Shown here one piece after another: positions 24,978-33,723 of a stretch of 33,723 bases of DNA. The DNA lies in contig JASHSV010000234.1 in NCBI GenBank assembly GCA_030038535.1, positions 1 to 33,723 of the forward strand. The letters are read 5' to 3'. Numbering within the stretch: position 1 is the stretch's first letter; every line of letters starts with the position of its first letter. A program made the translations under genes and the position numbers. The notes under the pieces are model-generated. The model was given only the letters and a program-made list of their open reading frames with translations. It did not search any database and was not told the origin of the DNA. The DNA is from Candidatus Acidiferrales bacterium. Lineage in GTDB: Bacteria; Acidobacteriota; Terriglobia; Acidiferrales; UBA7541.

Positions 24978-27900
24978 CTAAATGACTCTCAGTGTGAGCG
25001 TCAGTACCTTCATCAAATTCACGCCGTTCATGCCCGTGGCAGTCACCGTGACCATATAGCTGCCCTCCGGTGTCGTCGGCGCCCCAGGGATGGCCGGCGC
25101 CGGATTGCTCACGCATCCTGCCCAGCTGATTGCGACCATCAGCAGCAGCAGCGCCGGAACCGCGCGTGCAAGCCAAGGCTTCGGAACCACCCGGCGCAGC
25201 ATCACGAACAGAACCAGCGTACCCACCCACATTCCGGCGAACGGCGGGGGCAAGATCGGCGGCGATTTCTCTGGCCCCGGCGAAAGCAACGATGTATTGC
25301 AGTTCGTCTGCACCGTCACTGTAATCACTGGTACGGCTGCCCCGCCCAGAGTGACCTGCGTCGGGCTGACCGTGCAAATCGAATAGGGCGCCGTAGTAGT
25401 GCAGCTCAGGCTTACCGTCACCACCAGCCCCGGCGTGCTGCTTATATTCACCGGATAGGTCGCTATATCTCCTGGAGTGACCGTGAGCGTGGCCGAACTT
25501 CCCGCAGTCGGCGCGAGGGTCACCGTGGCTCCGATGCCCGAGAGCGAAACCGTCTGCGTGCCGGGTGGAGCGTTGTCGATGAAGGTGAGCGTCCCGGTCT
25601 GTAACCCCGTCATCGTCGGCGTAAATGTAACGCTGACCATGCAATTCGCCCCGATCGCTACCATTCCGCACGTGTTCGCCGACACGTTGAACTCCGCACT
25701 CGCCGTCACGCTCGTGACATTCAGCGTCGCTCCTCCGGAATTCGTGATGGTGATGGTTTGAGCTGCGCTGGTTGTGCCTTCCAGCACTGCCCCGAAATAA
25801 AGAGGCGCGGACAATGCAAAGCCCGGGACTGTGGTTGAGCCCGTGCCGGAAAGAGTGATCGTCTGCGGGCTGTTCGCCGCATTATCTATGATCACTATCG
25901 AGCCGTTTCGCACGCCCGCTCCCGACGGGGTAAAGGTAACCGTAATCATGCACATCCCGCCCGCTGGAACGCTCGGGACGCAGGTGTCCATCTCCGAATA
26001 ATCGCCTGACGCAGCGATTGTGGTGATATTGAGTGCAGACCCTCCGGTGTTCATCAGCGTGATAGGCGCCCCTGCGATGGGCACGCCCACTGCTTGCGTT
26101 CCAAAAGTCAGGTTGTTCGTCGATAGGATCGCCGTCGGCGGTGTGACTCCCGTGCCGGTTAGCGTCGTCGTTTGCATGCCCACCGAGTCGGTTACCACGA
26201 GTGTCCCCATCAGCGTTCCGGACGCGAGCGGAGTAAAGGTCACATTGATGCTGCAATTCGAACCCGCGGCCAGCGACGTGCCGCAATTGCTCGAGAGCAC
26301 GGCGAAGTCGCCGGTCGTCGCGATGTTGGTGATCGGCAGGGGCGCGCCTCCCGTATTGCTCAGCGTCGCCGCCATCGACGGGCTCGTCGTGTTGATTGCC
26401 TGAGAAGTCGTAAAGGTGATCGTGGCCGTCAAATTGGCCGTCGGTGGCGTGACCCCTGTGCCGTTGATGGTCACGTTTTGCGGGCTCGCCGGAGTTCCGC
26501 TGGCGTTGTCCGTGAACTGCAGCGTAATCGTGCGCGCACCCGTTGCCTGAGGAGTGAATGTCAGAGACACCACGCAATTCGCCCCCGCCGCCAGCGAGCT
26601 GCCACAACCGTTCGAGGCAATCGCGAAATCGTTCATGTCTGCGCCGGTCAGCGCCACATTCGCCAATGTAAGCGGCGAACTCGCCGACGTGTTCGTTAGC
26701 GTCACATTCATCGGTGCGCTCATCGTCATCAGCACTTGATTCGGAAACGTCAACGGAGTGGGTGGTGCCGGATTGAGCGTCAGTGTGGGGAGCGCCAGGT
26801 CGGTGCCGCTCACCCCAATTGTCTGCGTGCCGTTTGTGGCGTTGCTCGCAAGCTGCAGCGTCGCCATTCGGTTGCCAGCCGCCCCCGGCTGCGGCGTAAA
26901 CGTCACGCTGATGACGCACGTATTGCCGGGTGCCACGGCAGTCGTGCATCCCGTAGCTGCAAAATCCATAAAATTCGTTCCGCCAAACGTCAGCGGTTGC
27001 GTGACCACGAGATTTGCTGCCGGTGCCGTCGCGCTGTTGGTGATGGTCACCGTCTGCGCCGTGCTCGTGGTTCCCTGCACCTCCGGACCAAACAGAAGAC
27101 TGAGCGGCGGGACCGACACGACAGCCGGCGGAAAAACACTCGTAGCATTGAGCATAACGCTCTGCGGGCTGCCGACTCCGTCATCTGTGAATACCAGCGT
27201 GGCAGAACGCCCCCCCGGCGGCACGGTGTTCGGCGTGAACGAAACATAGACCGTGCAGGTCGAATTGTTGTCTTGTATCTGGCTGTTCGGATAGCAATAG
27301 TTAGGATTGATGCTAAATTCCCCGGGATTCGCGCCAGCCAGCATCACCGGCGTCGGACTCGACAAATCCACATAAGAGGTTGTGCTCGTGTTGGTAAAAG
27401 TCACGGCCACCGGGCCGCTCGAGGAACCCACCTGCGTCGTCCCCATGAAGTTGACGGGAGACGGCGTCAGCGTCACCGTTGCAGGCGGCAGGGCAATCCC
27501 CGTTAATGCGGCCGTACACGACATCGCTGTAGGGCAATTCGCGTTGTTCTGGATCACGACTTGTGCGTTTTCCGCCGCCGGGCCCTCCATGGTCGAGGCC
27601 GTCGGCGTAAACCGGATAGTGATCTGGCACGAGGCCCCTCCCCCCGCCACCGTCGCACAGTTGTCCGTCTCGGGAAAATCCCCGGCATTGGCCCCTTTAA
27701 TTGTGATCGTGCTCGTCAATTCGGCACTCCCCTGATTGTAAATGGTCAAAACTTGGGGACCGGATGGGTAGGGTTGGTTAGGGGTATTCGAGAGTGAAGA
27801 CCCGAAGTTGAAAGTCAGCGGCGTGGAGGTAGTCGCCGACGTCGCATTCATCAGCGCCGGTGAGAAGCACGCCGAAGCCGAGTTCGTCGGATTGATGATT

Positions 27901-30569
27901 GCCACAAATCCATTATTGTCGTTGTAGTACAACTGATCGGCATTCGCGCCCGGAATCTGGTTGATGAAGCACAGGCCCGGTTCTCCGTATTGGTTGAGCG
28001 TGTTGCCCGTGGTGCCATACGACGTGCTTCGCCCCGCAACATACATAACCCCGTTGCTGTCCAGCGTGATCGAGGTGCCCACGTCCGTCGGTGAATTGCC
28101 GTAGTAGTCGTACAGACCGCCATAGTAGCTGGAAAATAGAAGCCCACTGCCCAGGTTGTTCACTACCGTCACGAACGCCGAAGACGAGTAATACTGAGCA
28201 TTCGATTGCGTCTGCAGCGCGTTCGCAAGCGGGAAGCCGGGATCCGCGCCCGTCCCGCTGGCGGTAGACCCGGTTACGAACGAATCTCCATTCTCGTCAG
28301 CCGCGATCCCCAGCCCTATGTCGTCATTTGAGCCACCCAGGTAGGTCGCATAATTGATATCATCCCCTCCGCCGCACTCCGTGGTGCACGCATAGTAGAA
28401 CGACACCACAAAGGCATCGTTCCCGCCGTTGTTATTGGCCTGGAAGGGCTGCCCTTCGCAAAACTCCGGGCAAATCACCGTTACCGGTTGAAAGTCTCCC
28501 GACTCGGTCTGCCCTGTCACAAAGGCGTCACCCTCCAGGTCGAGCGCGATTGCATTTACTTGGTCGGCGTTGCTCCCCCCCAGGTACGTGCCGTAGGACA
28601 CGTACTGCCCGAACTCGTTCATCTCAACGAAGAACCCGTCCCCACACGCGAATACATATCCCGGTCCGCAAGTGTTGGAATCATTCGAAGTCTGCTGGAG
28701 AGAACCCCCGGTGATGGCAACACACCCATCGCAGGGATAGGAGAACGTCAGATTCGGGTCGTTTCCGGAAAAAGTTACGCCACCTACGAAGACATTGTCG
28801 TTCTGGTCCAGCGCGATCGCCAATCCTGCGTCCGTCTCGTACCCGCCCAAATATGTCGCGAACATCAGCGCTCCGGAATTCGCGCAGATCGTGCCCGCCG
28901 GGCACACAGGATTGTTGATCCCCGCCACAAAAGCGTCGCCCGCTCCGTTGTAATATTCCTGAAACGGAGAGCACTCCTCGCAAAACGTTTCGCTTACCTG
29001 GGTGGGAAAATATTCGCCCGCCGCTCCGGTCAAGAAGGCGTTTCCATTCCCATCCACCGCAATCGCATAGCCTTCGTCGTCGTCACTTCCCGCCAAATAC
29101 GTGCTGAATAGCAATTGGCTCAGGTCGGGGCTGAACACGGAGACGAATACGTGATGGCACGCGCGCGGCTGTGCGGTTGTGCCGCATCCCGAATTTGTCA
29201 CCGGATAATTGATCGTCCCCCCGCCTTCTGGGCACGAGCTCACCCCGAGCACGCACTGAATCGCGTTCGCCGTCGTCGGGTAATCCAGCGAGTCCGTCTG
29301 CCCTACGATGTAGGGGTCGTCATTCTCGTCCAGCGCAATCCCCCAGGCCACATCGTCATTCGATCCGCCAATGACCGTGGAAGTCACCAGCACCGGCGCC
29401 GTAATCGTGCTGACGTTGAATTCCGCCACAAACGCGTCGCCGCACGGCGACTGCGGAATTTGGCAGTTCACGTTCGGAGACCCCAGCGGCCCGTAGCCGC
29501 CTTCCGTCGTCACGGGAAAGTCATACGAATCTTCGAATCCTGTCACGTAGATGTGGCCCGTTGCCGCGCTCACCGCGATGCTCTCGATGGAATCCTCATA
29601 GCTCCCTCCCAGGAACGTGGAGAGAGACACCGAACCCCCAGTCGGCGGTGGCGTATCGGGAGGAGTTCCGTTATTTCTGCGCCCCCGCCCTGTGCCCTTC
29701 GCCGCCTGCCTCGCAGCCCCATGTCTCAGAGACACCTGGGGATCGATCACCAGAGCTTCCGCGTGGTTGTAGGCCGCCACCTCGAATCCGATTTCGCCCG
29801 GGGCTCGCCACACGTACCGCCCAGCGACTTCCGGCCGTTCGCCCCCGAACTTCTGGTACATGCGTGGGGGCAGCAGCATCACCTCGCCCGCGGCCGTGCG
29901 CGCGACTAGGCCTCCCTCCTCCGTCAATTCCACGCTCCCGGCTCCCTCAACGCGCATCCGGATGGCGGAGGGATCCGCGCCCGGCGCTATCACAAAGTCG
30001 AATTCCATCTCCTGTCGGTCGCCGTAAAACACAGCGTCGATGCCGGGATACAGACCTTCATACCGTACTCGACCGAAATGCGGCACATTGCGGCGCCAGC
30101 CGTTTGGGTCGCCCCCTTTGAAGTAATTGATGGTGCCCGGCTCCGGATCGACCCCTTCCAGCCGCGCCTCTGGATCGCTGCCCGCAAATTCCAGGCGCAC
30201 CAGAGCCGACGCCGCCATCGCGTCGGCCCAGCCGAGCCCTTCGGGTTCGAGTTGCGCCGGGCGCTTCTCACGCGTATGCAACGTATGGAGGTGCAGGTCG
30301 GCCTCGTCCGGCGCCAGCCCGAGCATAAAGTTTCCGCCCCGGGCCACAAATTTCATCCGCGCATTCGTCTGCCCGATGTTCTCCTCAAAGCTCAATGGCG
30401 CCCCTGTCAGCGCGCTCCGCACCCGTTGTTCGAACGCGGCATCGCGCAGCAGACCACGATTGCCCGCTCCGGCGATGCGGCGCGCCGGCGCCCGCGGCGG
30501 ACGCTGCCCGCTCAGCAGAAACCCGATGGCGCAAAGCACACCCGTTGCGAGTAAGACCTTTTTAGACAT
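24978..30569 (-). CDS. Giant secreted protein: N-terminal DUF7948-like region, SBBP beta-propeller repeats, about seven ASH/choice-of-anchor-D-like repeats, C-terminal Ig-like segment with embedded TM helices
   Basis: About 1863 aa from MSKKVLLATGVLCAIGFLLSGQ; repeated TYLGGSNxDxGxGIAxDxxGxxFVTGxT (SBBP); repeated LxFGxxxxGxTSxxQTxTITNSGxAxLxxTxxxxSxxFxxxxxxCxxxxAxGxxCxxxVTFTPxxxGxxxGxLxxxDNAxxxxQTxxLSGxG (ASH-like). Confidence 0.85.
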   Translation of the reverse strand: MSKKVLLATGVLCAIGFLLSGQRPPRAPARRIAGAGNRGLLRDAAFEQRVRSALTGAPLSFEENIGQTNARMKFVARGGNFMLGLAPDEADLHLHTLHTREKRPAQLEPEGLGWADAMAASALVRLEFAGSDPEARLEGVDPEPGTINYFKGGDPNGWRRNVPHFGRVRYEGLYPGIDAVFYGDRQEMEFDFVIAPGADPSAIRMRVEGAGSVELTEEGGLVARTAAGEVMLLPPRMYQKFGGERPEVAGRYVWRAPGEIGFEVAAYNHAEALVIDPQVSLRHGAARQAAKGTGRGRRNNGTPPDTPPPTGGSVSLSTFLGGSYEDSIESIAVSAATGHIYVTGFEDSYDFPVTTEGGYGPLGSPNVNCQIPQSPCGDAFVAEFNVSTITAPVLVTSTVIGGSNDDVAWGIALDENDDPYIVGQTDSLDYPTTANAIQCVLGVSSCPEGGGTINYPVTNSGCGTTAQPRACHHVFVSVFSPDLSQLLFSTYLAGSDDDEGYAIAVDGNGNAFLTGAAGEYFPTQVSETFCEECSPFQEYYNGAGDAFVAGINNPVCPAGTICANSGALMFATYLGGYETDAGLAIALDQNDNVFVGGVTFSGNDPNLTFSYPCDGCVAITGGSLQQTSNDSNTCGPGYVFACGDGFFVEMNEFGQYVSYGTYLGGSNADQVNAIALDLEGDAFVTGQTESGDFQPVTVICPEFCEGQPFQANNNGGNDAFVVSFYYACTTECGGGDDINYATYLGGSNDDIGLGIAADENGDSFVTGSTASGTGADPGFPLANALQTQSNAQYYSSSAFVTVVNNLGSGLLFSSYYGGLYDYYGNSPTDVGTSITLDSNGVMYVAGRSTSYGTTGNTLNQYGEPGLCFINQIPGANADQLYYNDNNGFVAIINPTNSASACFSPALMNATSATTSTPLTFNFGSSLSNTPNQPYPSGPQVLTIYNQGSAELTSTITIKGANAGDFPETDNCATVAGGGASCQITIRFTPTASTMEGPAAENAQVVIQNNANCPTAMSCTAALTGIALPPATVTLTPSPVNFMGTTQVGSSSGPVAVTFTNTSTTSYVDLSSPTPVMLAGANPGEFSINPNYCYPNSQIQDNNSTCTVYVSFTPNTVPPGGRSATLVFTDDGVGSPQSVMLNATSVFPPAVVSVPPLSLLFGPEVQGTTSTAQTVTITNSATAPAANLVVTQPLTFGGTNFMDFAATGCTTAVAPGNTCVISVTFTPQPGAAGNRMATLQLASNATNGTQTIGVSGTDLALPTLTLNPAPPTPLTFPNQVLMTMSAPMNVTLTNTSASSPLTLANVALTGADMNDFAIASNGCGSSLAAGANCVVSLTFTPQATGARTITLQFTDNASGTPASPQNVTINGTGVTPPTANLTATITFTTSQAINTTSPSMAATLSNTGGAPLPITNIATTGDFAVLSSNCGTSLAAGSNCSINVTFTPLASGTLMGTLVVTDSVGMQTTTLTGTGVTPPTAILSTNNLTFGTQAVGVPIAGAPITLMNTGGSALNITTIAASGDYSEMDTCVPSVPAGGMCMITVTFTPSGAGVRNGSIVIIDNAANSPQTITLSGTGSTTVPGFALSAPLYFGAVLEGTTSAAQTITITNSGGATLNVTSVTASAEFNVSANTCGMVAIGANCMVSVTFTPTMTGLQTGTLTFIDNAPPGTQTVSLSGIGATVTLAPTAGSSATLTVTPGDIATYPVNISSTPGLVVTVSLSCTTTAPYSICTVSPTQVTLGGAAVPVITVTVQTNCNTSLLSPGPEKSPPILPPPFAGMWVGTLVLFVMLRRVVPKPWLARAVPALLLLMVAISWAGCVSNPAPAIPGAPTTPEGSYMVTVTATGMNGVNLMKVLTLTLRVI

Positions 30570-30682
30570 AGCGAACTCCCCACCGATGGAGGATCGAAAA
30601 CACGCGTCTAGTTGGAGGGCGCCGTTCGATTCGGGCTGACCCCGGAACACCCGCATCGTTCAATCAATTCGAAGCCCGAAGC

Positions 30683-30907: not shown

Positions 30908-32512
30908 ATGTCGGATCTCCCCACACCCCAGGCGGGCCGCCCGGCGGATTCCCTCTCGCCGGGAAAGACCCCTCCGGATACGACCCAGGCGGAACTGGCC
31001 CGGGAACGCGACCGCCTCCGGCTTCTGCTCGAAGTGAACAACGCGGTTGTCTCCAATCTTGAATTGCCGGACGTATTTGCCGTCATTTCCGCCTTTTGCC
31101 GCGATTTGCTGGGCCACGAGTACACCAGCCTGGCGCTCATGGACAAAGAAAGCCCGGGCAAGATCCGCTTGCACGCCGTGGATTTCCCTTCCGGCAAGCA
31201 CCTCCTTCGCGAAGAAATGGTCTTTCCACTGGACCAAGTGCCTTCAGGCCAGGCCATTGAGTCCAGGCAGCCGGTTCGATTTGACCGCGAATCACTCGAG
31301 CGCATGGCTACCGAGGGCGCCAGGCTTCTTCTTGCCGAAGGGCTCATCTCGGGAGTCTGCCTGCCGCTGCTCACTCGCAACACCGTGCTTGGCACCTTGA
31401 ATCTGGCCAGTTCCCGCCCGGAAGCCTTTTCTGACGCCGACATCGAGCTGCTCGGACAGGTCGCCGTGCAATTCGCTATCGCTCTGGAGAATGCCCTCGC
31501 TTATTGTGAGATCGAGGATCTCAAGAACCGTCTTGCCGAAGAGAACCTGATTCTCGTGGACGAAATGCGCTCGGGCTACCAGTTCGAGGAGATGGTGGGA
31601 GAAAGTGCCGCCCTCCAGCACGTTCTGCGGCAAGTGGAAACTGTCGCGCCCACCGGTTCTTCAGTCCTGCTCCTCGGTGAGACCGGTACCGGGAAGGAGC
31701 GCGTCGCCAGGGCTATCCACAACCTCAGCCCGCGGAGCAAGGGCCCCTTTGTCAAGATTAATTGCGCCGCCATTCCCGCGGGTTTGCTCGAAAGCGAGCT
31801 CTTTGGCCACGAAAAGGGCGCGTTTACCGGCGCGGTCGCACAAAAGGTGGGACGCTTTGAGCTCGCCGAGCAGGGAACCATTTTCCTCGACGAAGTAGGA
31901 GACATTCCCCTCGAGCTGCAGCCCAAGCTCCTCCGCGTCCTCCAAGAACAGGAGTTCGAACGGCTCGGAGGCAGCCGCACCATACGCGTCAATACGCGCG
32001 TCGTCGCCGCCACCAACCGCGACCTTCCCGCCATGGTCGCCGGCAAGCAATTCCGCAGCGATCTCTATTACCGCCTCAATGTCTTCCCCATTCGCGTCCC
32101 TCCGCTCCGCGAACGCACCGACGATATCCCGCTGCTGGTCCGCTTTTTCGCCCAGATGTATTCGCGCCGTATGAACCGCAACATCGAAACCATCCCTTCC
32201 GAGAGCATGGATGCTCTGGTCCGGTATCCCTGGCCAGGCAACGTGCGCGAACTGGAAAACCTCATCGAGCGCGCCGTAATTCTTTCCCCTGGTACAGTTC
32301 TCCGTGTCCCCATCGCCGAGTTGCGGGGAATGGACGCGCCCGCTCCATCTCCCTCCGCCACGCTCGAAGAGATGGAACGGGAGCATATCCTTCAGACCCT
32401 GCGCGAATCCAAATGGAAGCTATCCGGACCCGGCGGCGCGGCACCCCGCCTCGGGTTGAAGCGCACCACGCTCCAATCGCGCATGAAAAAACTCGGAATC
32501 GAGAAGAGCTGA
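30908..32512 (+). CDS. Sigma-54-dependent transcriptional activator (GAF - AAA+ - Fis-type HTH), FhlA/NorR-like
   Basis: GAF-like N-terminal domain; AAA+ motifs [17 protein letters not shown] (Walker A), [14 protein letters not shown] (GAFTGA sigma-54 loop), [34 protein letters not shown]-terminal helix-turn-helix [15 protein letters not shown]. Confidence 0.95.
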
Positions 32513-32527
32513 GCTTCGTGGCCGATC

Positions 32528-32563
32528 CTGCCGAGATTTCGGCAACTGCCGACATCTCGGCAG
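32528..32563. promoter_or_regulatory. Two tandem 16-bp dyads (TGCCGA-N4-TCGGCA) forming a near-perfect 36-bp palindrome; candidate activator binding sites or, alternatively, a hairpin
   Basis: TGCCGAGATTTCGGCA (32529-32544) and TGCCGACATCTCGGCA (32547-32562), AC spacer; outer arms CTGCCGAGAT/ATCTCGGCAG perfectly complementary. Confidence 0.65.
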
Positions 32564-32646
32564 TCTGGATCTCCGGACGTCATCAGCCTGAAACATCTTA
32601 ACCGACATTCCTGCATTAAGACTTTGTTTTTCAATGAGATAAAAAC

Positions 32647-32665
32647 TAGGACTCCATGAGTCCTA
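32647..32665. promoter_or_regulatory. Perfect dyad operator candidate upstream of the STAS gene
   Basis: TAGGACTC-CAT-GAGTCCTA, 8-bp perfect arms; contains GACT-N5-AGTC. Confidence 0.6.
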
Positions 32666-32667
32666 TT

Positions 32668-32683
32668 TGGCTCCCGGCGTGCT
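32668..32683 (+). promoter_or_regulatory. Candidate sigma-54 (-24/-12) promoter for the STAS-sigma operon
   Basis: TGGCTCCCGGCGTGCT: GG (32669-32670)-N10-GC (32681-32682); compare consensus TGGCAC-N5-TTGCW. An overlapping TACAAT (32683-32688) is an alternative -10. Confidence 0.4.
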
Positions 32684-32711
32684 ACAATTGTTGCGCGATT
32701 TGGTTCGGCCT

Positions 32712-33059
32712 ATGCTTCGAGTGACTGAGTCAGACCAAGGCAGTTCCTACGTGTTGATGGTGGAGGGCAAGCTTACCGGAGCCGCTCTGGGACTGCTTTC
32801 TGGCCTTCTGGAGCGCCTTCCAGCAGCGTTCGTAGGCGGCAAGCAGGTTCTGGTCGATTTGATGGGGGTTACTTCGATAGACGCCGAGGGAAAGCGGATT
32901 TTGAAGAATTTGCACTCCCGCGGCGCCACCTTTCGTGCGAAGGGCTGCCTGAATCGCGCCATCGTTGAGGCAATCACCTGCTGCGCTCCGGAGCCCGCGG
33001 GGGCGGGCGCACCACCGGAGCCGCAGGGAGAGGGCAGTGATCGGGGGGATGGAAAATGA
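32712..33059 (+). CDS. STAS-domain-like protein (anti-sigma-factor-antagonist-like fold)
   Basis: 115 aa; VLMVEGKLTGAALGLLSGLLERLP...KQVLVDLMGVTSIDAEGKRILKNLHSRGATFRAKG fits the STAS pattern; stop overlaps the sigma-factor ATG. Confidence 0.65.
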   Translation: MLRVTESDQGSSYVLMVEGKLTGAALGLLSGLLERLPAAFVGGKQVLVDLMGVTSIDAEGKRILKNLHSRGATFRAKGCLNRAIVEAITCCAPEPAGAGAPPEPQGEGSDRGDGK

Positions 33060-33723
33060 ACACCATACGCCAGGAAAAGCTGCAATCATCGAGAATCGTT
33101 CCGAATCTTGTATCGACAAAAGATCCGCAGTTGCTTCTGATCGAAAAGGCCCAGGCGGGAAATCAGGACGCTCTGGAATCCCTGTTCGCAAAACAAAGCC
33201 CAGCCCTCTATCAAACGGCCCTTCGGCTGGTGGGCACACCCGAAGAGGCGGAGGATGTGCTTCAGGAGGGAATGCTGAGTGCCTTCCGCAATCTGCGGCG
33301 CTTCGAGGGCCGATCTCAGTTTTCCACCTGGCTCACGCGCATCGTTATCAACGCTGCCTTGATGCGCCTGCGCAGCCGTCGCGCGCGGCCGGCCGTCTCC
33401 CTGGATGAGCGTTTAGCAGAGGACGACGAGATGACCTTCGCCGACCAGTTTCCGGACACCGCCCCCAGTCCGGAGCAGATTGTGGCGCGCCGCGAGCTGG
33501 AAGACCTGCTGCGCCGCAATCTCCAGACGCTCTCGCCGGTCCTTCGTTCGGCCTTCATCTTGCGTGAAATGGAGGGCTTCTCTACGGAGGAAGCGGCGGA
33601 GGAGCTGGGCATTTCCCAGGGAACGCTAAAGGCCCGGTTGCACCGCGCAAAACGCCAGCTCTCGCGCTTGATTGGCCGTGCTTTACGGCCGCCGGAAGCA
33701 GAGAGCCGCCGTGGTGGTGGCTT
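33056..33723 (+). CDS. ECF-type RNA polymerase sigma factor (sigma-70 region 2/4), 3'-truncated by window end
   Basis: Translated by hand (absent from the ORF track because no stop lies in the window): MNTIRQEKLQSSRIVPNLVSTKDPQLLLIEKAQAGNQDALESLFAKQSPALYQTALRLVGTPEEAEDVLQEGMLSAFRNLRRFEGRSQFSTWLTRIVINAALMRLRSRR...LSPVLRSAFILREMEGFSTEEAAEELGISQGTLKARLHRAKRQLSRL. Confidence 0.92.
   Translation, partial: MNTIRQEKLQSSRIVPNLVSTKDPQLLLIEKAQAGNQDALESLFAKQSPALYQTALRLVGTPEEAEDVLQEGMLSAFRNLRRFEGRSQFSTWLTRIVINAALMRLRSRRARPAVSLDERLAEDDEMTFADQFPDTAPSPEQIVARRELEDLLRRNLQTLSPVLRSAFILREMEGFSTEEAAEELGISQGTLKARLHRAKRQLSRLIGRALRPPEAESRRGGG

Follow-up and report, generated by a model that had tools for sequence, protein, structure and literature searches.

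Tandem dyads as a probable sigma-54 enhancer between a GAF-type activator gene and a STAS-ECF sigma operon in an Acidobacterial genome

Introduction

Near one end of a contig from a Candidatus Acidiferrales bacterium, a gene for a one-component sigma-54 activator (EBP) is followed by a gene for a STAS-domain protein and a gene for an ECF sigma factor. Two tandem dyads lie between the EBP gene and this operon, and the question raised by the locus is whether they are the site from which the EBP controls its neighbours, or whether they serve some other protein or act only in RNA. An earlier note, made from the sequence alone, had suggested that the EBP may activate the downstream operon in a sigma-54 to ECF-sigma cascade. 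Here we follow up this suggestion across related genomes; the window, as referred to below, is the whole stretch of 33,723 nucleotides that was analysed. The account that we consider highly probable is that the dyads are the tandem enhancer of the EBP, that a sigma-54 promoter drives the STAS-ECF sigma operon, and that this operon is the remnant of an efflux module.

Results and discussion

The locus

The features relevant to the argument are as follows.

30908..32512, + strand: EBP gene, encoding a 534-aa one-component sigma-54 activator with one GAF domain, an AAA+ domain and a Fis-type HTH
32529..32544, no strand: dyad 1, TGCCGAGATTTCGGCA, proposed EBP enhancer site (UAS)
32547..32562, no strand: dyad 2, TGCCGACATCTCGGCA, proposed EBP enhancer site (UAS)
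32607..32647, no strand: AT-rich spacer from UAS to promoter, where the DNA may bend
32648..32664, no strand: third dyad, AGGACTCCATGAGTCCT, directly next to the -24 element and possibly an additional operator
32667..32683, + strand: predicted sigma-54 promoter, TTGGCTCCCGGCGTGCT, with GG at 32669-32670, N10, and GC at 32681-32682
32680..32688, + strand: extended -10-like element, TGCTACAAT, read from the sequence as a possible sigma-70 promoter with a start at ~32695
32712..33059, + strand: STAS-domain gene, 115 aa, the first gene of the operon; its start, MLRVT, is conserved across 17 relatives
33056..33723, + strand: gene for an ECF sigma factor, which shares 4 bp with the STAS gene and is truncated where the contig ends, at 33723

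The EBP matches Sigma54_activat (PF00158, 2.6e-72), GAF_2 (2.2e-15) and, above the curated cut-off, HTH_8 (3.2e-06), which places a Fis-type HTH at its C-terminus. The protein carries the GAFTGA motif at residue 304 and a Walker A motif, GETGTGKE, at 257; an in-frame stop lies just upstream of the ATG, and an orthologue in the same genus is 88% identical. Most relatives of this EBP have open frames of ~700 residues, whereas the EBP of the window and its orthologue in genome G011 are short and seem to have lost an N-terminal sensor domain.

Recurrence of the tandem dyads

Both dyads are exact 16-bp copies of TGCCGA-N4-TCGGCA with centres 18 bp apart, as the earlier note had described, and the first follows the EBP stop codon after 16 bp. 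The genome scan that the note had proposed shows them to be the only exact copies in the source genome (a draft of 3.38 Mb, 79% complete). One-mismatch copies of a single dyad do not outnumber a reversed control in this genome (12 versus 19 sites), and therefore isolated near-matches carry no meaning, whereas two exact tandem ones do.

The note had also made its reading hinge on conservation of the dyads in orthologous loci, and tandem dyads indeed recur. With up to 3 mismatches allowed, the tandem pattern is found in 27 of 399 genomes of the class and in 11 of 89 of the family, at one site apiece and with no reversed pattern in either set; because the motif had been drawn from the relatives encountered first, the figure for the family is in part circular, a reservation that does not extend to hits from other families and phyla. 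By our reading of the flanks, all 27 class sites belong to one gene system (L047, L049 and L050 were counted as members on the basis of larger flanks): in 24 the next gene downstream encodes a STAS-domain protein, in one (G011) it is the sigma gene, and the remaining two adjoin a TolC-type gene, the EBP gene being ~5 kb off. The intergenic DNA behind EBP orthologues of other genera is diverged, yet the tandem TGCCGAnATnTCGGCA-N2-TGCCGAnATnTCGGCA dyads are retained. Further loci came from scanning named genomes for exact matches; they carry the labels Nitrospirae, Verrucomicrobia, Gammaproteobacteria and Blastocatellia (metagenome bins, taxon labels as given), and the first three of these labels include loci with the same arrangement of dyads and -24/-12 element. 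A search of genome contigs for related loci with the STAS gene as the query returned no match, but the DNA pattern search did find such loci. Altogether, the combination of tandem dyads, -24/-12 element and gene order is shared, with near-fixed spacing, between different genera, families and phyla. Some loci labelled Nitrospirae or Verrucomicrobia (L067:3496-7998, L073:6429-7999, L070, L064) have the same dyads and -24/-12 element before a TetR-like gene and RND-type pump genes, and one of these contigs carries two dyad sites.

The dyad pair also forms a near-perfect 36-nt inverted repeat that could fold into an RNA hairpin. The dyads could accordingly be read as the arms of a palindrome acting in the EBP transcript, as a terminator or 3' stabiliser, and not as protein-binding DNA. 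The predicted hairpin is strong (z = -3.6, arms 94% complementary), and in most loci the dyads are 0-30 bp past the EBP stop codon. However, the hairpin has no T-run after it and is not listed by a terminator scan for intrinsic terminators, and its free positions pair at the level of chance (11 observed versus 8.9 expected, 12 versus 10.4, and 11 versus 9.9). Moreover, in five of the 27 loci the dyads precede STAS with no adjoining EBP gene, so that they follow the promoter rather than the 3' end of the EBP gene; in others, they are 49-139 bp from the stop codon. A terminator would also leave the fixed distance from the dyads to the -24/-12 element unexplained. We rejected a hairpin or terminator as the main role on the covariation, the loci without the EBP gene and the missing T-run, and regard this explanation as extremely improbable, although the dyads may have an additional hairpin role. 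An Rfam search of the window matched no family.

The centre of the dyads avoids perfect symmetry: at the N-A-T-N centres (32535-32538 and 32553-32556), the free central bases are complementary in 4 and 3 of 33 cases, compared to ~10 expected.

A predicted sigma-54 promoter at a near-fixed distance

The GG-N10-GC element that the note had placed downstream of the dyads is present at 32667-32683. Its TTGGC and TGCT fit the TGGCAC-N5-TTGC context, with a weak middle, and the source genome encodes sigma-54 (PF04552, 7.5e-56). For the predicted start near 32694, the dyad centres fall at about -158 and -140, in agreement with the note, and the leader to the STAS start codon at 32712 is 18 nt long.

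The promoter call had been ranked below the dyads, and for GG-N10-GC alone this ranking stands; it does not hold once the relatives are counted, because the fixed position of the element among them makes it strong promoter evidence. Scored with a simple consensus (cut-off of at least 23), a -24/-12 element follows dyad 2 after 92-112 bp in 29 of 34 loci, which share ancestry and are not fully independent, with spacer DNA between genera too diverged for alignment by eye. Dinucleotide shuffles give an expectation of 1.4 +/- 1.1 loci (5 at most), and in other segments of these real sequences the element is found in 0-3 loci. Among the Acidobacterial loci from the class-only set, 20 of 24 have it at this distance against 0.8 expected. 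The median distance from dyad 2 is 104 bp, and no helical phase preference in the dyad-promoter distance was detected across the aligned sites. The alignment of 33 promoter sites yields TTGG[C/A]A...TTGC, with near-invariant positions (T31 G33 G33 ... T31 G32 C33). In Acidobacterial loci, the segment from -60 to -20 ahead of the -24 element is ~70% AT, compared to ~50% in the flanks on either side, and an IHF/HU-type protein might occupy the corresponding AT-rich spacer of the window.

Overlooked in the earlier note, an exact AGGACT-N5-AGTCCT dyad abuts the -24 element. It is the sole exact copy in the source genome, is kept as AGGACcctgacAGTCCT in a second species of the genus (genome G001) and is absent from other genera. 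The AGGACT dyad was considered as a genome-wide operator and rejected, with one exact copy and near-matches rarer than the control. In several genera (L078, L079, L080, L081, L082, L083, L022, L095), the place next to the -24 element is taken instead by a third TCGGCA half-site or dyad, possibly serving autorepression.

This crowded segment gives rise to the main rival of the sigma-54 reading, namely, that in this genus the STAS-sigma operon is transcribed mainly from the overlapping extended -10 sigma-70 promoter, perhaps repressed through the AGGACT dyad, with the sigma-54 element secondary or decaying. The extended -10-like element is conserved between the window and G001, where it reads TGCTATAAT, and the exact AGGACT dyad is directly upstream of it; the starts predicted for the two promoters differ by only 1-2 nt. 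Against this, a sigma-70 scan found no acceptable -35 and no two-hexamer site, the extended -10-like element is absent from other genera, and the GG and GC of the -24/-12 element are retained together with both dyads in both species. We therefore judge dominance of the sigma-70 promoter to be unlikely; the extended -10 and the AGGACT dyad may nevertheless supplement the sigma-54 promoter with a further promoter or with a site for a repressor.

The recognition helix of the EBP covaries with the dyad half-site

Under a strict call, the recognition helix of the EBP and the half-site of the dyads change in step: the EBPs by TGCCGA sites have the helix RTTLQS, with Gln, as in the window (19 loci), and the EBPs by TGACGA sites have RTTLNS, with Asn (10 loci), with one apparent exception, in which the EBP is not beside its dyad site. 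The Asn-A loci form a single clade on the EBP tree, so that the switch is one evolutionary event and the covariation is supportive rather than conclusive. This natural Gln/Asn change is a candidate specificity switch, open to direct test.

The covariation bears on the possibility that the dyads are bound by a regulator other than the neighbouring EBP, be it a paralogous EBP, a TetR-type protein or another repressor. EBPs are not the only regulators with palindromes of this type, the source genome has many EBP paralogues (~22 EBP-like matches), and in L067 and L073 the dyads are followed by TetR-like genes (a name read from the sequence). The half-site, however, follows the helix of the adjacent EBP, the EBP gene adjoins the dyads or is within ~5 kb in 22 of the 27 loci, and the fixed spacing from the dyads to the sigma-54 promoter is typical of a UAS. 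Binding by another regulator thus appears very unlikely to be the explanation, and we retain the neighbouring EBP as the probable ligand of the dyads.

The EBPs of a sister clade (L102, L104, L106-L116, L033, L035, L036) have RTTLNS helices, TGACGA-N4-TCGTCA sites and a TCGTCA half-site after the EBP stop codon, with -24/-12 elements at a constant distance; several are near STAS-like genes. From its sequence features, this clade appears to be a parallel regulon with changed operator specificity.

The STAS-ECF sigma operon and its efflux relatives

For the window protein alone, the STAS assignment is weak (STAS_2, E=0.0072), but for the family it is firm: all 17 members match STAS_2, a PDB profile search gives a match to TM1442 (1.3e-06), and the predicted model has a STAS fold (pLDDT 78). 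By profile and modelled fold, the protein thus resembles STAS anti-anti-sigma factors of the SpoIIAA/RsbV type. In SpoIIAA, the phosphorylated serine is part of a D-S-S-G motif. At the position that we take to be equivalent in the STAS alignment, all 17 members lack the phosphorylatable Ser and have IDAEG- or IDPAG-like sequences (IDAEG in the window); also unlike the SpoIIAA/RsbV systems, there is no switch kinase beside the gene. The sigma factor is recognized by Sigma70_r2 (2.8e-18) and Sigma70_r4_2 (9.1e-16), and its complete orthologue in G001 has 235 aa. The sigma gene directly follows STAS in G001 and directly follows the promoter in G011. In the window, the STAS and sigma genes share 4 bp, so that a promoter for the former would also serve the latter.

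In relatives, the first target gene encodes a STAS-like domain, then a signal peptide, then a TolC-type outer membrane protein, and is followed by genes for HlyD, in places a cytidylate-kinase-like protein, and an MFS pump; in G005 and G013, the pump operon also includes an ECF sigma gene. In the window and G001, only the stand-alone 115-aa STAS protein and the ECF sigma are left, and no close orthologue of the TolC part was found in G001 or in the 79% complete draft of the source genome (best match, 34% identity). The operon of the relatives resembles tripartite efflux systems of the EmrAB-TolC type in combining OEP, HlyD and MFS components, but differs in the STAS-like domain at the N-terminus of the TolC-like protein, ahead of an internal signal peptide, and in the proposed activation by sigma-54. 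The module probably first drove such an efflux operon (STAS-TolC fusion, HlyD, MFS and, in places, a terminal ECF sigma); the lineage of the window would then have dispensed with the pump genes while retaining the switch together with the STAS part and the sigma gene.

STAS-TolC fusions occur in L080:8357-9988 (- strand), L083:9966-11630 (+ strand) and L085:6466-8091 (- strand), as well as in L082, L084, L086, L087 and L091. A STAS domain ahead of a signal peptide is an odd topology for a cytoplasmic domain, and a full-text literature search for the fusion returned no paper matching all its terms. We can only speculate, and with little confidence, that regulation in this system centres on the STAS domain, that in the relatives this domain is freed into the cytoplasm by signal-peptide cleavage, so that successful export of the pump itself is signalled via STAS to the co-encoded ECF sigma or its anti-sigma, and that the lineage of the window kept this signalling pair alone under sigma-54 control.

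A proposed mechanism and its closest known counterparts

The note's suggestion that the EBP activates the STAS-sigma operon is supported by the conserved dyads, -24/-12 element and gene order, the presence of a sigma-54 gene, the GAFTGA motif and the helix/half-site covariation. In the proposed mechanism, the GAF domain would sense a signal, upon which the EBP would act from the tandem dyads immediately downstream of its own gene, as two dimers or as a hexamer. Its GAFTGA loop would then contact RNA polymerase-sigma-54 at the 32667-32683 promoter, ~105-140 bp downstream, a contact that a bend in the AT-rich spacer would probably ease. Transcription from ~32694 would yield STAS and ECF sigma from one operon, in a sigma-54 to ECF-sigma cascade in which the sigma factor may pass the response on to its own targets.

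The window EBP shares its GAF-AAA-HTH layout with the FhlA-type GAF EBPs, whose recognition helix (R-TTL) is also similar. The signal for FhlA is formate, its palindrome is another one, and its target genes are unrelated to those of the window. An EBP-to-ECF-sigma step like that predicted here is known from Pseudomonas syringae, in which the EBPs HrpR and HrpS together with sigma-54 transcribe the ECF sigma gene hrpL (PMC8228185). HrpRS, however, are without a sensory domain, act as a pair, are encoded in a separate operon and serve type III secretion (PMC8228185), whereas the window has a single GAF-type EBP next door and a STAS gene first in the operon, and relatives have an efflux operon as the target. 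In Desulfovibrio vulgaris, regulons of one-component EBPs, which were found by a comparative method as here, are alike in that EBP genes are co-localised with sigma-54 promoters, one of them downstream of the EBP gene, and palindromic or half-site UAS lie upstream of the promoters; the motifs are different, and the portion of that account available to us does not mention tandem TGCCGA dyads, a STAS-sigma operon or an efflux target (PMC4641369).

A literature search found no description of a sigma-54 regulon with these dyads, and a 2025 survey of sigma-54 regulons mentions neither Acidobacteria nor STAS (PMC12316311). The predicted regulon is well supported, and its proposed mechanism (EBP, UAS and -24/-12 element) is of a known kind; its new aspects are an operator code, an association with efflux operons that encode STAS-TolC fusions, and a switch that outlives the pump. 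For an uncharacterised class of GAF-type EBPs in Acidobacteria and several other soil lineages, the analysis predicts the operator; it would also link sigma-54 to efflux-type operons and, in the lineage of the window, to an ECF sigma factor.

Also shared with G001 is a divergent gene (24978-30656, - strand) for a 1892-aa repeat-rich protein, which has a counterpart of 1891 aa in the same place.
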